Assembly (NCBI GenBank): GCA_018821305.1
Contig: JAHJMN010000014.1
Coordinates: forward strand, 1 to 64,000
Length of the DNA: 64,000 nucleotides
Source of the DNA: Myxococcota bacterium
Lineage (GTDB): Bacteria; Myxococcota_A; Polyangia; HGW-17
Direction: 5' to 3'
Shown: one piece after another, positions 1,317 through 64,000 of the stretch
How positions within the stretch are numbered: position 1 is the first letter of the stretch
How the letters are laid out: each line of letters starts with the position of its first letter
Program-made: the position numbers and the translations under genes
The notes under the pieces: model-generated
Told to the model about the DNA's origin: nothing
The model's input: the letters and a program-made list of their open reading frames with translations, nothing else
Database searches by the model: none

Positions 1317-2411
1317 CTATTGAGGATTGGCGGATACAGCTGGAACTACGCGATCCCTGCCTCCACCCTTTGCCCGGTAGAGAGCTTCATCAGCTTTTTT
1401 AAGGATCTCTTCCATACTTGAAGCGTCCTGAGGATAAGTTGCCACCCCAATACTGACGCTGAGGTGCCCAAGAGGCTGCTGCTTTGCCCCTGGAACATCC
1501 AGAAGATTTATACCCTGACGAAGTCTTTCCGCTCTGATTAGAGCTCCTTCTTTACTTGTCTGCGGGAGTATTAGAACAAATTCCTCACCTCCATACCTGC
1601 CTATTATGTCAGATTTACGGGAAGGTGAAATGTCACTATTTCCATCGATAAGGAACTTTGAGACAGATTTTAATACTATATCTCCTACATCGTGACCGAG
1701 CCTGTCGTTGTAAAGTTTAAAATGATCAACATCACAGAAGAGAATTGAGACTTCACTCGAATATCGTTGAGATCTTGCAATTTCTTCTTCCAATCTGGAC
1801 TTGATAGTAACATGGTTGTATAATCCAGTGAGCCCATCACGGATAGCAGCTTTTTTTAATTCGGCGTTTGCCTCTTCAAGGTCCCGGAGCGCTTCCATCA
1901 ACTGATTGGTTCGTTCATCAAGAGATTGTCTGAGCAGTTCCCGGTGGCGTTTTAGTTCTTCATTGGTTGCTATCAGAGATTGATTGGCGTACTTCAGTTC
2001 AAGAAGTAAAATTTCATTCTTTTTCTCCAGATCCGATAATTGATTCATTTGATGAAGGACCGCTGTCAGTTCATGAAGATCCCAGGGTTTTTGTATAAAA
2101 TAATTTATGGATCCCATATTGACAGCCTTCATAGCTATCTCTGCATCACTCCGTCCTGTCATCAAAATACGTTTCGCTTGTGGAGCTAAACGCTTGGTTT
2201 CCCCAAATAATTCAATACCATTGATTCCCCCGGGCATGAACATATCACTTATTATAATTTTTACATCCAAACCGGATCTCAGGAGGGACAGTGCCTTTTC
2301 ACCGGATTCTGCTTCGGTAACTTGATATTCATCAAATAGAGCTCTCCGGATTGAGGATCTGATGTGTGGTTCATCGTCAACAATAAGAAGTCCTGATAAC
2401 TGTTCTGTCAC
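1317..2411 (-). CDS. Response regulator with GGDEF output (diguanylate cyclase)
   Basis: The GTG start at 2411 has GAGG six bases upstream; a TTG twelve bases earlier has no ribosome binding site. The 364-residue protein has a receiver domain (residues about 6-125) with acidic pocket DDE, phosphoacceptor Asp56 in IISDMFMPGG and Lys108. A coiled-coil linker (about 126-190) leads to a GGDEF domain (about 195-360) with signature GGEEF at 274-278 and metal-ligand Asp in FCDVDHF. An RKSD inhibitory I-site lies five residues before the signature. It should make cyclic di-GMP when phosphorylated and be inhibited by its product. No cognate kinase is adjacent. Confidence 0.9.
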   Translation of the reverse strand: MTEQLSGLLIVDDEPHIRSSIRRALFDEYQVTEAESGEKALSLLRSGLDVKIIISDMFMPGGINGIELFGETKRLAPQAKRILMTGRSDAEIAMKAVNMGSINYFIQKPWDLHELTAVLHQMNQLSDLEKKNEILLLELKYANQSLIATNEELKRHRELLRQSLDERTNQLMEALRDLEEANAELKKAAIRDGLTGLYNHVTIKSRLEEEIARSQRYSSEVSILFCDVDHFKLYNDRLGHDVGDIVLKSVSKFLIDGNSDISPSRKSDIIGRYGGEEFVLILPQTSKEGALIRAERLRQGINLLDVPGAKQQPLGHLSVSIGVATYPQDASSMEEILKKADEALYRAKGGGRDRVVPAVSANPQ

Positions 2412-2898
2412 AACGTTCCTCAAAATCTTAAAAGATAATTAGTTCCTATAAATTCCGGTTAAAAAAATCAGGAATAAAGGTAATTTTAAGATCATATACT
2501 TTCATTGAAAAAACTCAATTTTTATGGCAATTACCGCAATGACCAATAGGAGTCATAGAGGGAATTCCGAGAAAATATAATCCTGATTTCCTGTCCTGAT
2601 TTAGCTCGTGTCATGAAATTCAATTTTTGTTAAAATTGAGCATATTAAAAAATATACTATTCAGAACACTACAATAATTTCAAACTTTTCATTCTTAACG
2701 TCTAAAACGCATTTCCGAAGGAAATCGTAAAAGACGGCAACTGTTTTCGTAGAAACCAGAGAGTCCTGTGCCCAAATTTGATGAAAAATCTGAAATCAGT
2801 ACTTCAGGACTCCAACAAATTATATGTATATTCAAGTTCTAAACTCTTTTATCGGACTCTTTTGGAATAAATAAAGAAGAAAATTCGTAAGAGAAGAG
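2412..2898. other. Intergenic region with an inverted family A repeat
   Basis: No gene is visible in about 490 bases. 2601-2700 is a reverse-orientation, diverged copy of the module at about 119-222. 2708-2727 carries a hairpin with arms ATTTCC/GGAAAT and a 3-base loop. Further GAGTCCTG/CAGGACTC-like pieces flank 2770-2812. Confidence 0.6.
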
Positions 2899-2963: not shown

Positions 2964-3197
2964 ATGTATAAACTAGCGTTAGTAATATTTATTATTCTGT
3001 CCACAGGATGTGCATCAAGACAAAATTCCCATCAACAAATGAATACATCGGAAGAAAAAATGGCTCCGGGAAAAACTGAAGATCAGACAAAAACTACCGG
3101 AGCTGCAACTCCAGCAATAAAAACACCTGGAAATAAAGTACAACCAACTACCAGTGGTCATCGTAATGATATGGAAGGTACTGAAGATATACAATGA
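2964..3197 (+). CDS. Small lipoprotein 1 of 3 with conserved C-terminal tail
   Basis: This encodes a 77-residue lipoprotein starting at the ATG at 2964 (site GGAGG seven bases upstream). The signal peptide ends in lipobox STGC at residues 14-17. The mature body is low-complexity and rich in Lys, Thr, Pro and Glu, with no recognisable fold. The last residues read TSGHRNDMEGTEDIQ; the first 13 of these are identical to the ends of the next two genes. The stop codon overlaps the next start (ATGA), so the first two genes should be translationally coupled. The function and meaning of the tail are unknown. Confidence 0.8.
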   Translation: MYKLALVIFIILSTGCASRQNSHQQMNTSEEKMAPGKTEDQTKTTGAATPAIKTPGNKVQPTTSGHRNDMEGTEDIQ

Positions 3198-3763
3198 AAA
3201 CATTAATTATTTGCTTTATTTTTGTATCTTTCCTGGGGTGTTCTAAAAAAGAAAAAGAACCAAGAACAGCTCCGGATGAAAAAAATAAAATAGAAATAGC
3301 CCCTGAGGAGAAAAAGACAGTTCCCGACAGTGAACCTTTAAAACAAAAAACAAATCAGGATGTGAAAACTGATACATTAAAGGAAAAAGAGTCGAAGGAT
3401 TCTACAGATCTGAAAAAAGTCGAAGATAAATCTGCTGACGAAAAAGTTCCCAATGCACCTGCAAAAAAGCCTGCTCCCAAGAGTGAAGATCTTAAGAAAG
3501 AACTCAAAGGTATTATGGGAAATGGATTAAAAATGAAATCCTTTGGTGGAAGCGGAGGTAAGGGAGGGATTGGTGGAGGAGGCGGTAGCAGTGGAGGTTT
3601 TGGATTAAAAAGCGGACGTGGAGGAGCACGTAGTAGCAGACCCATAGGTGCGATGTCTTCTTCAATGCGTAGAAAATGCAATCCGGGAGATCCTCTGTGC
3701 GGAGCTGGAACTAAGACTTCCGGTCATCGAAATGACATGGAAGGCACAGAAGACGCCGATTAG
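3194..3763 (+). CDS. Gly-rich lipoprotein 2 of 3 with conserved C-terminal tail
   Basis: This encodes a 189-residue lipoprotein overlapping the previous gene by 4 bases. The lipobox FLGC ends at Cys16. A long Lys/Glu/Asp-rich linker (about 17-108) is followed by a Gly/Ser-rich segment (about 115-150) and a short CNPGDPLCG motif that could form a small disulfide loop. It ends TSGHRNDMEGTEDAD. The architecture looks like an anchored flexible stalk presenting a C-terminal peptide. No catalytic domain is visible. It was probably formed by sharing or duplicating the tail with its neighbours while the bodies diverged or were exchanged. Confidence 0.8.
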   Translation: MKTLIICFIFVSFLGCSKKEKEPRTAPDEKNKIEIAPEEKKTVPDSEPLKQKTNQDVKTDTLKEKESKDSTDLKKVEDKSADEKVPNAPAKKPAPKSEDLKKELKGIMGNGLKMKSFGGSGGKGGIGGGGGSSGGFGLKSGRGGARSSRPIGAMSSSMRRKCNPGDPLCGAGTKTSGHRNDMEGTEDAD

Positions 3764-3835
3764 TTTTTCGGAAAAAGATTTGTTTTGATTACTGGGATAT
3801 AATAGTTCTGAATTGGATTTAATATAAGGAGAAAA

Positions 3836-4114
3836 ATGTATAAGTTACTGATAGCTATTGTTATTGTTGGAATTTATGGTTGTTCCAAGCCGCAACCAAA
3901 AGATTGCGCTCATCCAAGACCCACGGCTGATTCCACAGTCAAAGAACGGGGCACAACTGCCGACACTGATAAAAGGAAGACCATTAAATTAGAGGAATCC
4001 AAAGGTCCTAAAAAAGATGTAATTGCTCCAATGATCCCATCAAAACCAGATGGTTCTGATAAAGAAACTTCTGGTCATCGAAATGACATGGAAGGCACCG
4101 AAGACGCTGACTAA
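3836..4114 (+). CDS. Small lipoprotein 3 of 3 with conserved C-terminal tail
   Basis: This encodes a 92-residue lipoprotein whose ATG follows AAGGAGAAAA. The lipobox IYGC is at residues 13-16. The body is short, charged and low-complexity (Lys, Asp, Thr, Pro), and the protein ends TSGHRNDMEGTEDAD, identical to lipoprotein 2. It is 72 bases from the previous gene, with a TATAAT box in the gap, so it may also be transcribed separately. Its stop overlaps the stop region of the convergent recD2-like gene by 4 bases. Confidence 0.8.
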   Translation: MYKLLIAIVIVGIYGCSKPQPKDCAHPRPTADSTVKERGTTADTDKRKTIKLEESKGPKKDVIAPMIPSKPDGSDKETSGHRNDMEGTEDAD

Positions 4115-6318
4115 TTGCTTTTTATATATTTTTGAATTTTTTCAGCCAGTTTCGAATATCTCTTTGTCCTTGCAAAATTAGATATTGCCATTCTCATTGC
4201 CTTTTTTGTTCCAACCATTACTACAAGTTTTTTTGCTCGCGTAACAGCGGTGTAAATTAGATTTCGCTGAAGCATTATCGTATGCTGGGTGTGAACCGGA
4301 ATTATCACGGCGCTGTATTCACTCCCCTGGCTTTTATGAATACTTATAGCGTATGCCAAAGAGAGATCTCCCATATCTGATCTCTGTACTTCAATAATTC
4401 TTTCATCAAACTGAACGTTGATGCTGGTGTTTTCACGGTCGATAGAGACAATTCTACCAATATCTCCATTAAAAACGCCAAGATCATAATTGTTCCGGAG
4501 TTGAATTACGCGATCTCCTGTGTGCCAAATGTAGTTATTAAATTTAATCTGGTCACTACTGGAATTCAGGTTTTTCTGTAAAATTAAATTAAGATTTTCC
4601 GTACCAAGCACGCCCCGATGCATGGGTGTGAGAACCTGAACTTCTGAAAATGGATCAAAGGCATACGAGTCTGGAATACGTTTAGTTACAAGTTCGTTAA
4701 TTATCCTTATAACATCCTGTGGATCTTCTTTTTCAATAAAAAATAAATCACCATTTCCACCCTTGCCAGTTATCAGATCCAGACCATTATTGATATTGTG
4801 AGCACATTTCACAATAAAGCTTTCTTCCGCCTGACGATAAATTGTATTGAGGCGTACTACACATATTTCACCACATTCAATCAGATCCTCTAAAACAGTT
4901 CCTGCTCCAACAGAAGGTAACTGATCATGATCTCCCACCAGGATAAGGCCTGCGGATGATGGAAGTGCTCTTATAAGGTGATACATAAGGGCAAGATCAA
5001 CCATGGAAACCTCATCAATGATTAGATAATCTGTTTCAAGTTGATTTTCATGGTTTTTTCCCCAGGTTCTCAGTCTTGGTTGAAATTCAAGCAAGCGATG
5101 GATCGTTTTTGCTTCTAATCCGGAAGCTTCTGAAAGTCTCTTTGCCGCTCTTCCCGTTGGTGCCGCGAGCATAATTCTGAAGCCTTCATTCATTACTATT
5201 TCACAAATGGCACGGACAAGGGTTGTTTTTCCTGTACCTGGCCCACCAGTAATGACAGTCACACCTCCACCGAGGGCTGTTTTTACAGCTGTTATCTGTG
5301 TTTCATCAAAAACCATATCCATTTTTTCATCAACAAGTTGTCGGATATCTTCTCTATCAGGATTTATGCCTGATTTAGGAGTATTAAGAAGATCCCCAAG
5401 TTCTTTTGCGAGAAAAGTTTCATATATATGGAATCTTTTAAGATAGACATCATCGTTTTCAATAACGATATTATTTCTAAAAACCAATCTCTCAAGAATT
5501 GCGTCGATATCAAGATCTGGAATTTCAAGATAAAGCGAAGCCTTTTCAAGAACATCTGTTTTAGGAAGAAATACATGTCCAGCGTTTTCAGATTCTTTCA
5601 GAATGTACAAAACAGCCGCTTCCAACCGAAAGGGACTGTTTGAATCAAAACCCATGGTTCGAGCTATTCGATCTGCTGTATGAAAACCGATTCCCCATAT
5701 TTCATCTGCAAGTCGGTATGGGTTTTCTTTTACCACTTCAATAGTTTTGTCTTTATATTTACTGTATATTTTCAGTGAAGTCCCCAGCCCAACACCATAA
5801 CTTTGAAGCCATACCATGACTTGAGCCATGTGTTTTCGTTCTAAAAAACTGCGAGAAATACTTTCACACCGGACTTTTCCGATTCCTTCAACTTCCATAA
5901 GTTTGTGCGGCTTATTTTCTATAATACTAAGAGTGTCTGCACCGAAATGATTAACTATTCGTTCGGCAAAAGAGATACCGATCCCGTTAACAAGACCGCT
6001 ACCAAGAAATCGTATAAGTCCTTCTTTAGTCGCCGGTTGGGTCATTTCCCATCGCGTAATCCGAAACTGTGGTCCGAATTTTCCGTTAATTTCCCAAGTG
6101 CCTTCAGTTTTGAGCCATGTACCGGGTGCAAGATCGCCAATCATTCCAACGCAGGTTAAAATGTTATCTTCACCTTCACGACGGGCTTTCAGAACGGTAA
6201 ATCCAGAATCGGAGCTATGAAAAGTAATTGTAATTATTTCACAATTGAAAATTTCGGTCCTTCCGGCCAGAGAAGGATCAGGTATTTCAAGTTTTCCTGT
6301 TCTGAAAAAGTTATCCAC
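4111..6318 (-). CDS. recD2: RecD2-like superfamily 1B DNA helicase
   Basis: This encodes a 735-residue protein starting with GTG. An N-terminal OB-like/helix-hairpin-helix portion (about 1-300; GSGLVNGIG, EGIGKV, GIGFHTADRIA) is followed by the helicase core. Walker A GGPGTGKTT is at about 358-366, Walker B IIDEVSM at about 433-439, GDHDQLPSVGAG follows, and the late motif HKSQGSEY lies near the C-terminus. The length and N-terminal extension fit stand-alone RecD2 (5'-3' helicase) rather than RecBCD-bound RecD; no recB or recC is nearby. Its likely role is DNA repair or replication-fork processing. Confidence 0.93.
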   Translation of the reverse strand: MDNFFRTGKLEIPDPSLAGRTEIFNCEIITITFHSSDSGFTVLKARREGEDNILTCVGMIGDLAPGTWLKTEGTWEINGKFGPQFRITRWEMTQPATKEGLIRFLGSGLVNGIGISFAERIVNHFGADTLSIIENKPHKLMEVEGIGKVRCESISRSFLERKHMAQVMVWLQSYGVGLGTSLKIYSKYKDKTIEVVKENPYRLADEIWGIGFHTADRIARTMGFDSNSPFRLEAAVLYILKESENAGHVFLPKTDVLEKASLYLEIPDLDIDAILERLVFRNNIVIENDDVYLKRFHIYETFLAKELGDLLNTPKSGINPDREDIRQLVDEKMDMVFDETQITAVKTALGGGVTVITGGPGTGKTTLVRAICEIVMNEGFRIMLAAPTGRAAKRLSEASGLEAKTIHRLLEFQPRLRTWGKNHENQLETDYLIIDEVSMVDLALMYHLIRALPSSAGLILVGDHDQLPSVGAGTVLEDLIECGEICVVRLNTIYRQAEESFIVKCAHNINNGLDLITGKGGNGDLFFIEKEDPQDVIRIINELVTKRIPDSYAFDPFSEVQVLTPMHRGVLGTENLNLILQKNLNSSSDQIKFNNYIWHTGDRVIQLRNNYDLGVFNGDIGRIVSIDRENTSINVQFDERIIEVQRSDMGDLSLAYAISIHKSQGSEYSAVIIPVHTQHTIMLQRNLIYTAVTRAKKLVVMVGTKKAMRMAISNFARTKRYSKLAEKIQKYIKSN

Positions 6319-7270: not shown

Positions 7271-7294
7271 TAAAACCTAATGGAAGGAGTAAAA

Positions 7295-7699
7295 ATGAGG
7301 AAATTAGCTATTTTGACAAGTATTTTAACTCTCAGCGCTGCAACAATTCTCTCTGGATGCGTTGTATCAGCACAGCCCGCAACGGTTTCCTATTCGTACG
7401 GAGGATGGAATCCCTATTATTATCAAGGAGCTTTGGTATACTTTGATAGTTTTGGAAGACCCTATTATTACGCTGGTGGTGTAAGAGTTTGGGTTCCTTC
7501 AACATGGGTACAATACAATTCTGCAGTAAGTTATTACAGAGTTAACAGACACCGTTATACCAGATGGCATGGCAGATATCATAGACCTTCACACTTCAGA
7601 TATCGCAGACCTGTCAGAACCGTACACAGAACTCGCGTTGTACATCGCCGGACACCTGCCCGTACCCGTACAGTTCGTGTAAGACACAAACGCCGTTAA
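7295..7699 (+). CDS. Tyr/Arg-rich lipoprotein
   Basis: This encodes 134 residues; the ATG at 7295 is preferred over one at 7280 because GGAAGGAG lies just ahead of it. The lipobox LSGC follows a 20-residue signal. The mature part begins with an aromatic stretch (YSYGGWNPYYYQG, SFGRPYYYAGG, VWVPSTW) and ends in a strongly basic Arg/His-rich tail (about 85-134). Basic tails of this kind can bind polyanions such as peptidoglycan-linked polymers, LPS or nucleic acid; this is inference. It is monocistronic, with its own promoter, leader hairpin and terminator, which suggests an abundant structural product. Confidence 0.75.
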   Translation: MRKLAILTSILTLSAATILSGCVVSAQPATVSYSYGGWNPYYYQGALVYFDSFGRPYYYAGGVRVWVPSTWVQYNSAVSYYRVNRHRYTRWHGRYHRPSHFRYRRPVRTVHRTRVVHRRTPARTRTVRVRHKRR

Positions 7700-11471: not shown

Positions 11472-11918
11472 ATGGAAGAACTGGAATTTTTTATTTCCAC
11501 CGGTAGCTTTCTGGTTCTTTTTATGATCGGATTTATTTTCGGTCGATTGAATGAAAAACGACATTTAGCAAGACTTGCAAAAGAACAGAAAGAATTGAAT
11601 GATATTTTATGCACCGATTTGAAAAGATATCCCGCGGACATTGATAGTTCGATAACGCCTGTTTTGGTTACAGGGCATGTTGTAATTGCAAATGATTATT
11701 TTAAAATGATCGCAGCCTCCTTAAGAAATATCTTTGGAGGTTCTGTTAAAAGTTACGAAGCTCTGATTCATAGAGCCAGATGGGAAGCATCTATACGAAT
11801 GCTTAAAGAAGCCAGAGAAAACGGTTTTGATGCCATTTGTAATATAAGATTTGAAACAGCAAATATTTCAAATGGTGTAGAAGTATTGGCCTGGGGCAGT
11901 GCCTTCAAACGAAAATAA
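11472..11918 (+). CDS. Membrane-anchored YbjQ-domain protein
   Basis: This encodes 148 residues. An N-terminal membrane segment (about 8-24) and a basic coiled stretch lead to a YbjQ domain (about 50-147) with VTGHVVIANDYFK, IFGGSVKSYEALI and NIRFETANIS. It is paralogous to the preceding gene but diverged. Since YbjQ proteins oligomerise, the anchored copy could tether rings of the soluble copy to the membrane; this is inference from the pairing. It is two bases from the following PrsW-like gene. Confidence 0.8.
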   Translation: MEELEFFISTGSFLVLFMIGFIFGRLNEKRHLARLAKEQKELNDILCTDLKRYPADIDSSITPVLVTGHVVIANDYFKMIAASLRNIFGGSVKSYEALIHRARWEASIRMLKEARENGFDAICNIRFETANISNGVEVLAWGSAFKRK

Positions 11919-11919
11919 C

Positions 11920-12666
11920 ATGAGTAAAGACAATAGTGTTTTTTCTGAACCTCACATGATGGAGGATTTTTCATCAAATCCTTCGGATATCAATTCTGAG
12001 CATATGGAAGATTCCCGGGATATTTATGAAAAATCAGAACAAAGTGTTTTTTCTGAAAACATTACAACATTTTCTACAGGGGAATCGGGTGACACTAGAC
12101 TGAATTACCATCACATTTATGAAGAAAGTATTCAAACGGTTACGTTATATAAAACTCTTCTGATAACTGTTCTTCTGGCTTTATCAGCAGGACCTCTGGC
12201 GGTTGCAGGGGTTTTTATGAGCTCTTTTGAGTACAGTTCATTTTTTCTTCTGAACGTTGTAATCATAGGGCCAGCAATGGAAGAAGCTTTGAAAACCGGA
12301 GCTCTTCTGATGACTGTGGAAAAAAGACCTTGGTTTTTTAAAAATGGATTACAAATTATTTTAATAGCAGCAGCGGGTGGTTTGCTTTTCGGAGTAATTG
12401 AAAACCTGTTGTATTTTAATTATTATATCAAGAATCCAACTTCGGAAATAATTCGTTTTCGCTGGATAGTCTGTACTTCTTTACATGTTGGTTGCAGTTT
12501 GATTTCGGGAATGGGTATCCGCCGTGTGTGGTTGTCTTCAATGAAAGATAAGACACAGCCCAGAACAACTATCTGGTTTCCATGGTTTATAACGGCATTT
12601 ATTGTTCATGCTATATACAATGGTTCTGTTACTCTGGCAGAACTTGGCAAGAATTACTTTTTTTAA
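11920..12666 (+). CDS. PrsW-family intramembrane metalloprotease
   Basis: The ATG at 11920 (MSKDN) lies two bases after the previous stop; an earlier in-frame GTG overlaps that gene. The 248-residue protein has an acidic, Ser-rich soluble N-terminus (about 1-75) and then membrane segments. These carry the PrsW signatures: PAMEEALKTG (Glu-Glu-x-x-Lys), FGVIENLLYF, SLHVGCSLISG and FIVHAIYNGS. The family cuts membrane proteins such as anti-sigma factors. No anti-sigma gene is adjacent; the neighbouring YbjQ proteins are candidate partners by position only. Confidence 0.83.
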   Translation: MSKDNSVFSEPHMMEDFSSNPSDINSEHMEDSRDIYEKSEQSVFSENITTFSTGESGDTRLNYHHIYEESIQTVTLYKTLLITVLLALSAGPLAVAGVFMSSFEYSSFFLLNVVIIGPAMEEALKTGALLMTVEKRPWFFKNGLQIILIAAAGGLLFGVIENLLYFNYYIKNPTSEIIRFRWIVCTSLHVGCSLISGMGIRRVWLSSMKDKTQPRTTIWFPWFITAFIVHAIYNGSVTLAELGKNYFF

Positions 12667-60156: not shown

Positions 60157-61908
60157 TCAGTTGCAGATTTCGTTGTTGTTTGCCTGACAATCAGGATCCT
60201 GGCAATCTCTGAGACCGTCGAAGTCATTGTCAATGTCGTCCTGACAGAGCTGCTCGGTGAGGGGGAAACCGGCGCAGGTAATGGAAGCGCGGGTTCCGGG
60301 AGCTGGATTTGTCTTACGGCTGATGATAATTTCAGCACCGCGGGAGGGACCGTAATTTGCATCTGGAGCAGCACACTCTTCATTGAAGGTAACATGCCAG
60401 CACTGATTAACCGGAAGATTGGGATCGCGTTTTTGTGGGTGACCGCCCATGTATGTATCAGGACAAATGGTAATAGGTACTGTTTCTCCAGTGGAAAGAA
60501 TATCTTTTACTTCGCAGTTTGGGTTACATGTTTGGGCTTCTGCATCAGAAAGTGAAGTAAGTTTTGTACCACCATTTGCAAAGGAAGGATCCGGACAGCC
60601 TTTAAGAGGAGTAGTAATACACTGAACCTCAACGAGAGCTTTGATTTTTTCACCAAGACCTTCAAGGGCCTGACTGTAATCGGGGTTACAGATAGAAGTG
60701 TATGCCCAGTTGAGATCCGCTTCATCTGTAAGGAAATAATTTACAAATTCAAAAAGGCGAATACCGGATACTGCACCGACTGTATCACTTGGAGCATAGC
60801 AAACGGGCTGAAGTTCCGGCCAGGAGTTTTCATCGACACCCACGGAAAGAGCACCATTATTGTATGGACCGCCGATGGCGCCGACAATGGTAAGCTCTGA
60901 GGATTTGATGGTCGAGAGGAAGTTTGTATAAGTAGAAACAGGCTGGAGAAGATTGTTATTGTCATTGGCAGGGCGGGAGTGACAATTCTGGTAGTTTACT
61001 ACACCACCGGTAATAACACGCTGCCATGCGTTGTCGCATACAATACCGAATTCAGTACAGCGGAAAGAACTTAGAGGACCGAGGTTTCCGGAGATTGAAG
61101 TGTCGGAATCATCGAAGATTGTTCCGGGCTGTTTGGCACTGCAGTCGTCTTCGTCGGAAATGAAGAAGAGAGCAAGATAGGCATTACTACGGATAAATCC
61201 GGGGTTTTTGCCAGGTGTTAGTGAGCGGAGCATAGCTTCGAAGTGCTGCTCAAAGCCGCAACCGGATGTTCCAGCATCAGCCATACAACTGAAAACATCT
61301 TCAAGATCTTCACCGGTGTAGTTACGGCAACGGGGGCAACCGTCTTCGTCTGTAGCAAACTGAAGACCTGCCGGTTCTGTGGCAACACCTTCAATGGTAA
61401 AAGCAGAAACTTCACAGTTTGTCTGACTGCAGTCGTGAGCAGAACAAATGTTTGTATCGTTGTCACGAGTGATGGTGCATCCTGCTGGTTCAACATCAAC
61501 AACGAAGTTCTGGCCAACGGGGTTTGCGCAGCCGCCTTTAACTAAAAGGCCATCATCGCCGACGCCTTCACAACCACCAACGTTGAAAGTGTACGTTCCA
61601 ATATCTGGAGTGATAACACCAATATGAACGTTGGGAAGACCACCGGAGATGTCCTTCAGAACGCGCATAAGTGAACTGAAGTTGTTTCTCAGTGTTTCCT
61701 GTTCACCCCTCATGGAGCCGGAGGTATCGATCTGGAAAAGAATGTCAACATCTCGAGTTGATGCCTGAACAGCACTGAAGTCAGAGATGACGTCGGGCTG
61801 GGGATCTGCAACTTTCATGGGTCTTTCGATGCATGACCATACGAAGACCAGAGAAGTCACTGCCGTGAGTGTTGCGAGAAACCGCAGGAAAAATCTTTTG
61901 TTTTTCAT
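60157..61908 (-). CDS. VWA-domain lipoprotein with MopE-like C-terminal motif
   Basis: This encodes 583 residues; the ATG follows GGAGGATGAAAT. Lipobox VWSC at Cys26. After the conserved stretch IERPMKVADPQPD comes a von Willebrand A domain whose MIDAS is DTSGSM (61-66), interrupted by a Cys-rich insert (about 110-230). FISDEDDCSAK follows, then further cysteine-paired sequence. The end (CQDDIDNDFDGLRDCQDPDC) is a MopE/thrombospondin-type Asp-rich motif likely to bind calcium or copper. It is predicted to be a surface adhesion or metal-dependent binding protein. A close paralogue lies just upstream. Confidence 0.9.
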   Translation of the reverse strand: MKNKRFFLRFLATLTAVTSLVFVWSCIERPMKVADPQPDVISDFSAVQASTRDVDILFQIDTSGSMRGEQETLRNNFSSLMRVLKDISGGLPNVHIGVITPDIGTYTFNVGGCEGVGDDGLLVKGGCANPVGQNFVVDVEPAGCTITRDNDTNICSAHDCSQTNCEVSAFTIEGVATEPAGLQFATDEDGCPRCRNYTGEDLEDVFSCMADAGTSGCGFEQHFEAMLRSLTPGKNPGFIRSNAYLALFFISDEDDCSAKQPGTIFDDSDTSISGNLGPLSSFRCTEFGIVCDNAWQRVITGGVVNYQNCHSRPANDNNNLLQPVSTYTNFLSTIKSSELTIVGAIGGPYNNGALSVGVDENSWPELQPVCYAPSDTVGAVSGIRLFEFVNYFLTDEADLNWAYTSICNPDYSQALEGLGEKIKALVEVQCITTPLKGCPDPSFANGGTKLTSLSDAEAQTCNPNCEVKDILSTGETVPITICPDTYMGGHPQKRDPNLPVNQCWHVTFNEECAAPDANYGPSRGAEIIISRKTNPAPGTRASITCAGFPLTEQLCQDDIDNDFDGLRDCQDPDCQANNNEICN

Positions 61909-62176: not shown

Positions 62177-63976
62177 TCAATTTTGAGGACAAATTTGACT
62201 CGGATATCCTCCCGGAAATTGGCAATCGGGATCTTCGCAATCCTTAAGACCATCGAAGTCATTGTCGATGTCATCCTGACAGAGTTGTTCGATGAGGGGG
62301 AAACCAGCACAGGTTATAGACGCTCTGGTTCCTGGCATTGGATTTGATCTTCTACTGATAACGATTTCAGCTCCCCTGGAAGGACCGAAATTATTATCCG
62401 GATCTGCACATTTTTCATTATATCTCACATGCCAGCACTGATTCACTGGTAAGTTGGGATCTCTTTTTTCTGGATGTCCCCCATTATAATCTTGTGGGCA
62501 CATATTTATAGTAACACGTTCACCCGTAGTAAATAGATCATTTACACTGCAATTAGCTTCACAAACATCGGCACAGGGTTTTCCTTCTTCACACTCATTT
62601 CCTCTCGGGAGTTCAGTCAGGGGAGTCTGTCCATTAAAAGCGGCAGGATCAGGGCAACCTTTTAAGGGAGTAGTAATACACTGAACCTCAACGAGAGCTT
62701 TGATTTTTTCACCAAGACCTTCAAGGGCACCGGAATAGTCATTGTTACAGATAGATGTAAAAGCCCAACTGAGATCATTTTCATTGCTGATAAACTCGGA
62801 GATAAATTCATATAATCGGATTCCAGGAGCGGCTCCATCGGTATCTCCGGCGGCGGCGCAAACTGGGTTTACATCAGGATTGTTATTTCCATTAAGACCT
62901 ATACTTAAGTTTCCATTGTTGTTTGGTCCTGTTATTGCGCCGGCTATTATCATTTCTGGAGATTTTATTGTTTTAAGAAGATTTGTAAACTGGGAAACAG
63001 GCTTTAAAAGATTGTTTGCATCCGTAGCAGATCTACTATGGCACCCCGTATAGTTTTCGGAACCACCACGAATAAATCTATTCCAGGTCTGATCACAGAC
63101 GAGACCAAATTCCAGACATCGAAAGTTATCAAGAGGACCAAGATTTCCTTCAAGAGATGTGTCGGAATTATCAAAAATGGTTCCCGGAGACTTTGCACTG
63201 CAATCATCTTCGTCTGAGATAATAAAAACAGCGAGATAGGCGTTATCCCGGAGAAAACCCGGATTATGATTGCCTGATAGGGCTTTTGTTACCGCTTCAA
63301 GATGCTGCTCAAACCCACAACCTCCGGTTCCAATGTCCGCCATGCAGGTGAAAACCTGTTCGAGATCTTCTCCTGAGTAATTTCGACATCTTGGACATCC
63401 GTTGTCATCGGAGTAAAGAGTCAGACCTGCCGGTTCACTTGATGTACCATTTATAGAAAATGCATCCTGTTCGCAGTTAGCCTGAGAACAGGTAGAATTA
63501 CTGCAGATTCCCGTTTCCTCATCTCTGGAAAAACTGCATCCTGAAGGTTCTATATCCACTATGAAGTTCTGTCCAATTGGATTACTGCAACCACTTCCTT
63601 TAAGAAGTTTTGCATCATCTCCAATACCTCCGCATCCTGGAACACTGAAATTGTATGCTCCGATATCCGGAGAAATAACACCGATATGAACATTTGGAAG
63701 TCCACCACCAATATCTTTAAGAACGCGCATTAAATTTGGGAAGTTATTCAATAATGTAGATTGCTCTCCGGCCATGGAAACCGAAGTATCAATCATGAAA
63801 AGAATATCCACATCACGGGTTGAAGACTGAGCAGCGGAAAAGTCACTGATTATATCCGGCTGAGGATCTGCAACTTTCATTGGCCTTTCAATGCAGGAAA
63901 AGGCCATGGCAAGCATCAGTGTTGAAACCGTTAATATGGCTATTCGCAAAAACATACGACGAATTGTAAATTTCAT
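62177..63976 (-). CDS. VWA-domain lipoprotein, paralogue
   Basis: The ATG at 63976 follows GAGGAGGACTTGCT, so the gene is complete; the frame continues to the window edge. 599 residues with lipobox AFSC at Cys28. The architecture matches the neighbouring gene (IERPMKVADPQPD, VWA domain, Cys-rich insert, ISDEDDCSAK, closing DNDFDGLKDCEDPDC). The MIDAS reads DTSVSM (63-68): the Asp-x-Ser-x-Ser metal ligands remain, but the usual Gly is Val. The two genes clearly arose by tandem duplication and have since diverged. Confidence 0.9.
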   Translation of the reverse strand: MKFTIRRMFLRIAILTVSTLMLAMAFSCIERPMKVADPQPDIISDFSAAQSSTRDVDILFMIDTSVSMAGEQSTLLNNFPNLMRVLKDIGGGLPNVHIGVISPDIGAYNFSVPGCGGIGDDAKLLKGSGCSNPIGQNFIVDIEPSGCSFSRDEETGICSNSTCSQANCEQDAFSINGTSSEPAGLTLYSDDNGCPRCRNYSGEDLEQVFTCMADIGTGGCGFEQHLEAVTKALSGNHNPGFLRDNAYLAVFIISDEDDCSAKSPGTIFDNSDTSLEGNLGPLDNFRCLEFGLVCDQTWNRFIRGGSENYTGCHSRSATDANNLLKPVSQFTNLLKTIKSPEMIIAGAITGPNNNGNLSIGLNGNNNPDVNPVCAAAGDTDGAAPGIRLYEFISEFISNENDLSWAFTSICNNDYSGALEGLGEKIKALVEVQCITTPLKGCPDPAAFNGQTPLTELPRGNECEEGKPCADVCEANCSVNDLFTTGERVTINMCPQDYNGGHPEKRDPNLPVNQCWHVRYNEKCADPDNNFGPSRGAEIVISRRSNPMPGTRASITCAGFPLIEQLCQDDIDNDFDGLKDCEDPDCQFPGGYPSQICPQN

Positions 63977-64000
63977 AGCAAGTCCTCCTCTGGAATACAC

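Follow-up and report, generated by a model that had tools for sequence, protein, structure and literature searches.

Three neighbouring small lipoproteins with unrelated bodies end in one common peptide, and the same motif was found internally in two further classes of membrane-anchored proteins encoded by this genome and at the ends of a syntenic lipoprotein pair in a sister species. The common peptide probably serves as a tag for docking or processing, and the best explanation, to which a probability of about 0.45 is given, is that disordered stalks anchored by lipid present a docking motif specific to one genus. According to this explanation, H-R-x-D-[M/K/T]-E-G-T-E-[D/E] would be a short linear recognition motif located on disordered parts of membrane-anchored proteins, the carriers of which would belong to one deltaproteobacterial-type genus. 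In the three lipoproteins, the lipid anchor and a flexible spacer would set the motif at a fixed distance from the membrane; a putative envelope protein would bind the motif, and different kinds of proteins would thereby gather on one partner. We infer that such a binding partner exists, that all copies of the motif face one compartment and that binding, not chemical change, is the purpose.

Lipoprotein genes, their tails and bodies

The stretch of DNA analysed here (the window, 64,000 nucleotides) is carried by contig C169 of a 5.2-Mb draft genome. Three short genes of the plus strand are located between a divergent gene for a response regulator with a GGDEF domain (1317..2423, minus strand) and a convergent gene for a RecD2-type helicase (4111..6318, minus strand). 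Their products are 79% and 58% identical, respectively, to those of the sister genome; the helicase was used as a synteny marker only, and the response regulator, likewise a synteny marker, gave no evidence of membership in the lipoprotein system. Gene lip1 (2964..3197, plus strand), whose start codon ATG at 2964 is preceded by GGAGG, encodes a 77-aa lipoprotein with a 46-aa disordered body; gene lip2 (3194..3763, plus strand), sharing an ATGA overlap with lip1, encodes a 189-aa lipoprotein with a 158-aa basic Gly/Lys-rich body; gene lip3 (3836..4114, plus strand), with AAGGAG before its start, encodes a 92-aa lipoprotein with a 61-aa body, and its last four bases are shared with the convergent RecD2 gene at the 3' end of the latter.

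At the N-termini of the three proteins, a hydrophobic signal leads up to the Cys of a lipobox (TGCAS, LGCSK and YGCSK, respectively). Read by eye from the ORFs, the lipoboxes are ILSTGC-AS in lip1, FLGC-SK in lip2, IYGC-SK in lip3 and ILISC-GK in a 599-aa protein of contig C167, which carries an internal copy of the motif; by the lipobox criterion, all four are predicted to be bacterial lipoproteins (SPII substrates). No Pfam or NCBIfam family covers lip1, lip2 or lip3 at its cut-off, and no relative was found among PDB sequences.

The tail is represented by the 13-residue peptide TSGHRNDMEGTED followed by two residues, namely, IQ, AD and AD in lip1, lip2 and lip3. It is encoded on the plus strand at 3150..3188 in lip1 (from the match 3144-3194 and the codons), 3716..3754 in lip2 and 4067..4105 in lip3; the protein ends are TSGHRNDMEGTEDIQ in lip1 and TSGHRNDMEGTEDAD in both lip2 and lip3. 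Three plus-strand ORFs confirm the report of the earlier note that three neighbouring lipoproteins have one common tail, and the synonymous codon differences listed there are correct.

Pairwise comparison over the 13 tail codons of both genomes gave pS of 0.24 to 1.0 and pN of 0 to 0.15. The tails of lip1 and lip2 differ by seven silent codon differences and no replacements (pS 0.89, P 1e-5), and the lip2 tails of the two species differ by eight silent differences and one replacement. Because silent sites are near saturation while pN is at most 0.15, the codon comparison indicates that the tail peptide, not its DNA, is kept by peptide-level purifying selection, as had been suggested earlier. 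For the same reason, the DNA-level likeness, including silent sites, of a coding DNA repeat of the palindromic-element type is absent. The closest pair in DNA is lip2/lip3, with two of 13 codons different, both silently; the five DNA differences between these tails, the stop codon among them, are all silent. Copying of the tail between these two neighbours, followed by selection, appears likely, because they are the most alike in tail DNA and all of their differences are silent. Two other interpretations were rejected, namely, tail DNA as a Shine–Dalgarno sequence for the next gene, since conservation of the tail extends to copies with no gene downstream, and the RecD2 3' overlap as the cause of conservation, since it touches the last codons of the last gene only.

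The bodies, described earlier as unrelated, aligned no better than shuffles, with z of -0.6 to 2.0 for proteins and values equal to shuffles for DNA. The spacer of lip1 has 46 vs. 50 aa and a net charge of +2/+1 in the two orthologues, and that of lip2 has 158 vs. 138 aa and a net charge of +12/+14. The AlphaFold model of lip2, which as a single-sequence model is weak evidence, has a mean pLDDT of 53 and contains the signal helix and one weak helix only; the disorder call was made mainly from composition, the AlphaFold run having used a single sequence. A free sequence with kept length and charge and a conserved end is the pattern expected of a tether, and the bodies may be of this kind. Lipoboxes, body composition and pLDDT all support the lipid-anchored flexible stalk proposed in the earlier note.

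Sister species and distribution of the motif

The sister genome belongs to the same genus (metagenome-assembled deltaproteobacterium, contig JAFGWM010000032.1) and contains a syntenic lipoprotein pair, identical in gene order and ATGA overlap, that ends in TSGHRNDTEGTEEMQ and TSGHRNDMEGTEEIQD. The final residues in the five lipoproteins of the two species are IQ, AD, AD, MQ and IQD. Flanking orthologous proteins of the window and the sister genome are 55-79% identical, and the two species are therefore far apart. The tail, which had been called invariant, is so within this genome; in the sister species, one copy has T for M, and both have E in place of the final D. It is not confined to copies with near-identical DNA, the tail DNA of the sister genome being strongly diverged.

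Searches of 318 genomes of the class and 379 genomes of the phylum revealed nothing convincing, and a pattern search of about 85,000 species revealed nothing convincing beyond the sister genome: all of its 59 stretches, except those of the sister genome, were chance-like by inspection (unrelated frames or proteins). Among other family members with a sufficient contig, small tail lipoproteins beside RecD2 were not found. Motif carriers are represented by two genomes only, both of one genus, and the distribution at the level of class, phylum and species-wide searches is narrower than the earlier claim implied. Apparently, the motif either arose within this genus or has diverged elsewhere so far that it is no longer recognisable. 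No published peptide matching this sequence was found in the literature searched, in agreement with what had been stated earlier.

Several similar matches were rejected. Hits of EGTE[DE] in Cys-rich repeats (CGxGxxEGTE[DE]C) belong to a different, ordinary repeat. The class-level match in genome G177 (E 0.0055) has only nine matching positions, and the frame read there encodes a LysR-type regulator that lacks the motif. In other family members, hits with three mismatches proved not to be the motif wherever their frame was readable, some minus-strand ones excepted. A repeat protein of genome G003 (L172) contains the look-alike ISDAMEGTDDIDGDGIPN in an apparent Ca-binding-type repeat, which is probably a coincidence.

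The motif inside other membrane-anchored proteins

The motif GDHRLDMEGTEDIS was found internally, in the context PAIGDHRLDMEGTEDISDDEM, in the 599-aa lipoprotein of contig C167; the match was obtained by the tail-profile search (E 4.8e-4 with this protein held out of the profile). Among its orthologues, the motif loop is missing in genomes G004 and G006, and G002 has the loop without the motif. Immediately upstream of this gene, a 750-aa lipoprotein is encoded (L161:4284-6536), in which SHGCHRLHN resembles an L,D-transpeptidase signature; its match to Pfam YkuD is below cut-off.

Another internal copy, KHRNDKEGTEDIS, is present in the context NNDMKHRNDKEGTEDISSV in a tandem family of membrane-anchored proteins encoded beside a radical-SAM enzyme on contig C76, where a shortened copy, NNDMKGTEDISSV, also occurs. 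In proteins of this family, the N-terminal domain is followed by a hydrophobic stretch, the last residue of which is an invariant Cys, and by a Pro-rich tail; judging from the one hydrophobic stretch, the motif is probably outside the cytoplasm. The locus (L024:8503-13023) comprises a SPASM-like radical-SAM enzyme and, after it, four tandem proteins, in which the N-terminal domain is conserved and IEVRxxPP motifs are repeated; the family is multi-copy in related genomes, with 11 matches in G006, and the locus is possibly a system, so far undescribed, for modifying peptides or proteins. The N-terminal domain looks FHA-like by eye, an assignment rejected as unconfirmed by Pfam and PDB profiles.

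The codons of both internal copies are independent of, and differ from, those of the lipoproteins, and both host proteins are missing from the sister genome. The pattern H-R-x-D-x-E-G-T-E-[D/E] gave about 57 chance hits in 257 Gb, or 0.0012 per genome of this size. Accordingly, with this empirical background from the 85,000-species scan, the probability of two extra copies by chance is about 7e-7, a somewhat optimistic value because the pattern was picked after those hits were seen.

Internal occurrence in two unrelated protein types is a new finding, and it follows from it that the motif would work without a free C-terminus. The earlier description of the motif as specifically C-terminal is not supported, and the suggestion of C-terminal sorting or C-terminal release is weakened by the internal copies.

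Possible roles of the motif

The internal copies in two unrelated protein types favour a position-independent docking or modification motif over a C-terminal sorting signal; accordingly, the earlier functional guess should be changed from a C-terminal signal to a linear motif that can be used in either position, terminal or internal. A short conserved peptide in a disordered context and its presence in unrelated families (lipoprotein tails, the C76 family and the C167 lipoprotein) are characteristic of short linear motifs. Counted against the docking explanation is that the motif-bearing loci are not co-located, and no conspicuous candidate for the partner gene adjoins the lipoproteins in either genome.

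Short peptides common to unrelated exported proteins have often led to a dedicated machine, namely, sortases, exosortases, myxosortase and MNIO enzymes. In bacteria, little is known of peptide tags that bring lipoproteins together on one envelope partner. Conservation of the peptide, which is terminal or internal, contrasts with the free variation of the remaining lipoprotein sequence, so a reader should exist. With rather less than even odds, the 11-13-residue peptide may have been acquired by at least three unrelated envelope protein types as a genus-specific address tag, terminal or internal, for one dedicated extracytoplasmic hub or modifying enzyme; no description of an address tag of this kind was found in the literature searched. 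The range of one genus limits the interest of the motif.

Two well-known types of functional C-termini are comparable with the tails. The Braun lipoprotein (Lpp) is likewise a small envelope lipoprotein with a functionally important C-terminus, but lip1, lip2 and lip3 have neither a C-terminal Lys for peptidoglycan linkage nor a coiled-coil body. SSB-Ct and the EEVD tail of Hsp70/90 likewise place a conserved acidic peptide at the end of a disordered linker whose sequence is free; unlike these cytoplasmic tails with known binders, the motif is located on exported lipoproteins, is unrelated in sequence and also occurs internally.

The main rival of the docking motif, though an unlikely one, is a substrate site of a modifying or cleaving enzyme, whether as a RiPP-like core carried by lipoproteins, as a site of glycosylation or crosslinking, or as a target of proteolysis; unrelated proteins would be tagged because the enzyme reads the short motif alone. 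There is a precedent in an MNIO subfamily that recognises diverse proteins, lipoproteins included, by a C-terminal 7-residue motif alone (PMC12636315), and one internal copy of the present motif belongs to the tandem family beside the SPASM-like radical-SAM enzyme; however, the sister genome has the tails without the radical-SAM-linked family. DAG-RiPPs are lipoprotein–RiPP hybrids modified by MNIO enzymes, with the motif CPxCxMG or other Cys motifs, and their C-terminal motif alone suffices for recognition (PMC12636315). They resemble the three lipoproteins in that an N-terminal SPII signal and a short conserved C-terminal motif enclose a variable middle part and that the hosts are diverse. 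In contrast to DAG-RiPPs, which have an MNIO gene in the cluster, the tail here contains no Cys core such as CPxCxMG, and no Tyr or Trp, and the motif can be internal. No RiPP enzyme was found among the scanned neighbours in both genomes (upstream reach of about 3 kb in the contig), nor any other modifying enzyme near the lipoproteins in either genome. The known versions of an enzyme site are weakened because Cys and a nearby enzyme are missing.

A sorting or surface-display signal read at the C-terminus of lipoproteins is improbable. The motif is strictly C-terminal in all five lipoproteins of the two species, and a short C-terminal signature on unrelated exported proteins is also typical of MYXO-CTERM/myxosortase and other tripartite sorting tags (PMC11980579). 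However, two other protein types carry the motif internally, and the hydrophobic helix, basic end and Cys of known C-terminal sorting tags are lacking (PMC11980579). All three defining features of MYXO-CTERM, the invariant Cys, transmembrane helix and Arg-rich end, are absent from the tails, the anchor being the N-terminal lipobox.

It is hardly probable that the peptide acts alone, by metal ion binding through His and clustered acids or as an envelope charge pattern. HRNDMEGTED has one His and five Asp/Glu residues, and a look-alike string, ISDAMEGTDDIDGDG, occurs in a repeat protein of a related genome; however, exchanges between D and E and shifts in spacing are usually tolerated at metal sites, whereas R, G and T are here as fixed as the acids, and the DxDxDG of a Ca-binding TSP3/EF-hand loop is absent from the tails, with no Pfam hit.

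Recent duplication or gene conversion without selection on the tail, consistent with the closeness of the lip2 and lip3 tails in DNA and the likely copying between neighbours, is very improbable, since lip1, lip2 and the sister copies combine near-saturated silent sites with few replacements and the tail is kept between species whose flanking proteins are only 55-79% identical.

Other genes of the window were also noted. A PrsW-family intramembrane protease (11899-12666; L013:15761-16513 in the sister genome), syntenic in both genomes, is encoded about 8 kb downstream of the lipoproteins, with several unrelated genes in between. A small protein with a lipobox (7280-7699), Tyr-rich in the middle and basic (Arg/His-rich) at the C-terminus, belongs to no Pfam family, and its synteny is kept in the sister genome and G003. 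Tandem paralogous large Cys-containing lipoproteins (60157-61908 and 62177-64000), mutually very similar by eye, have a DxSxS-type (VWA-like) start.
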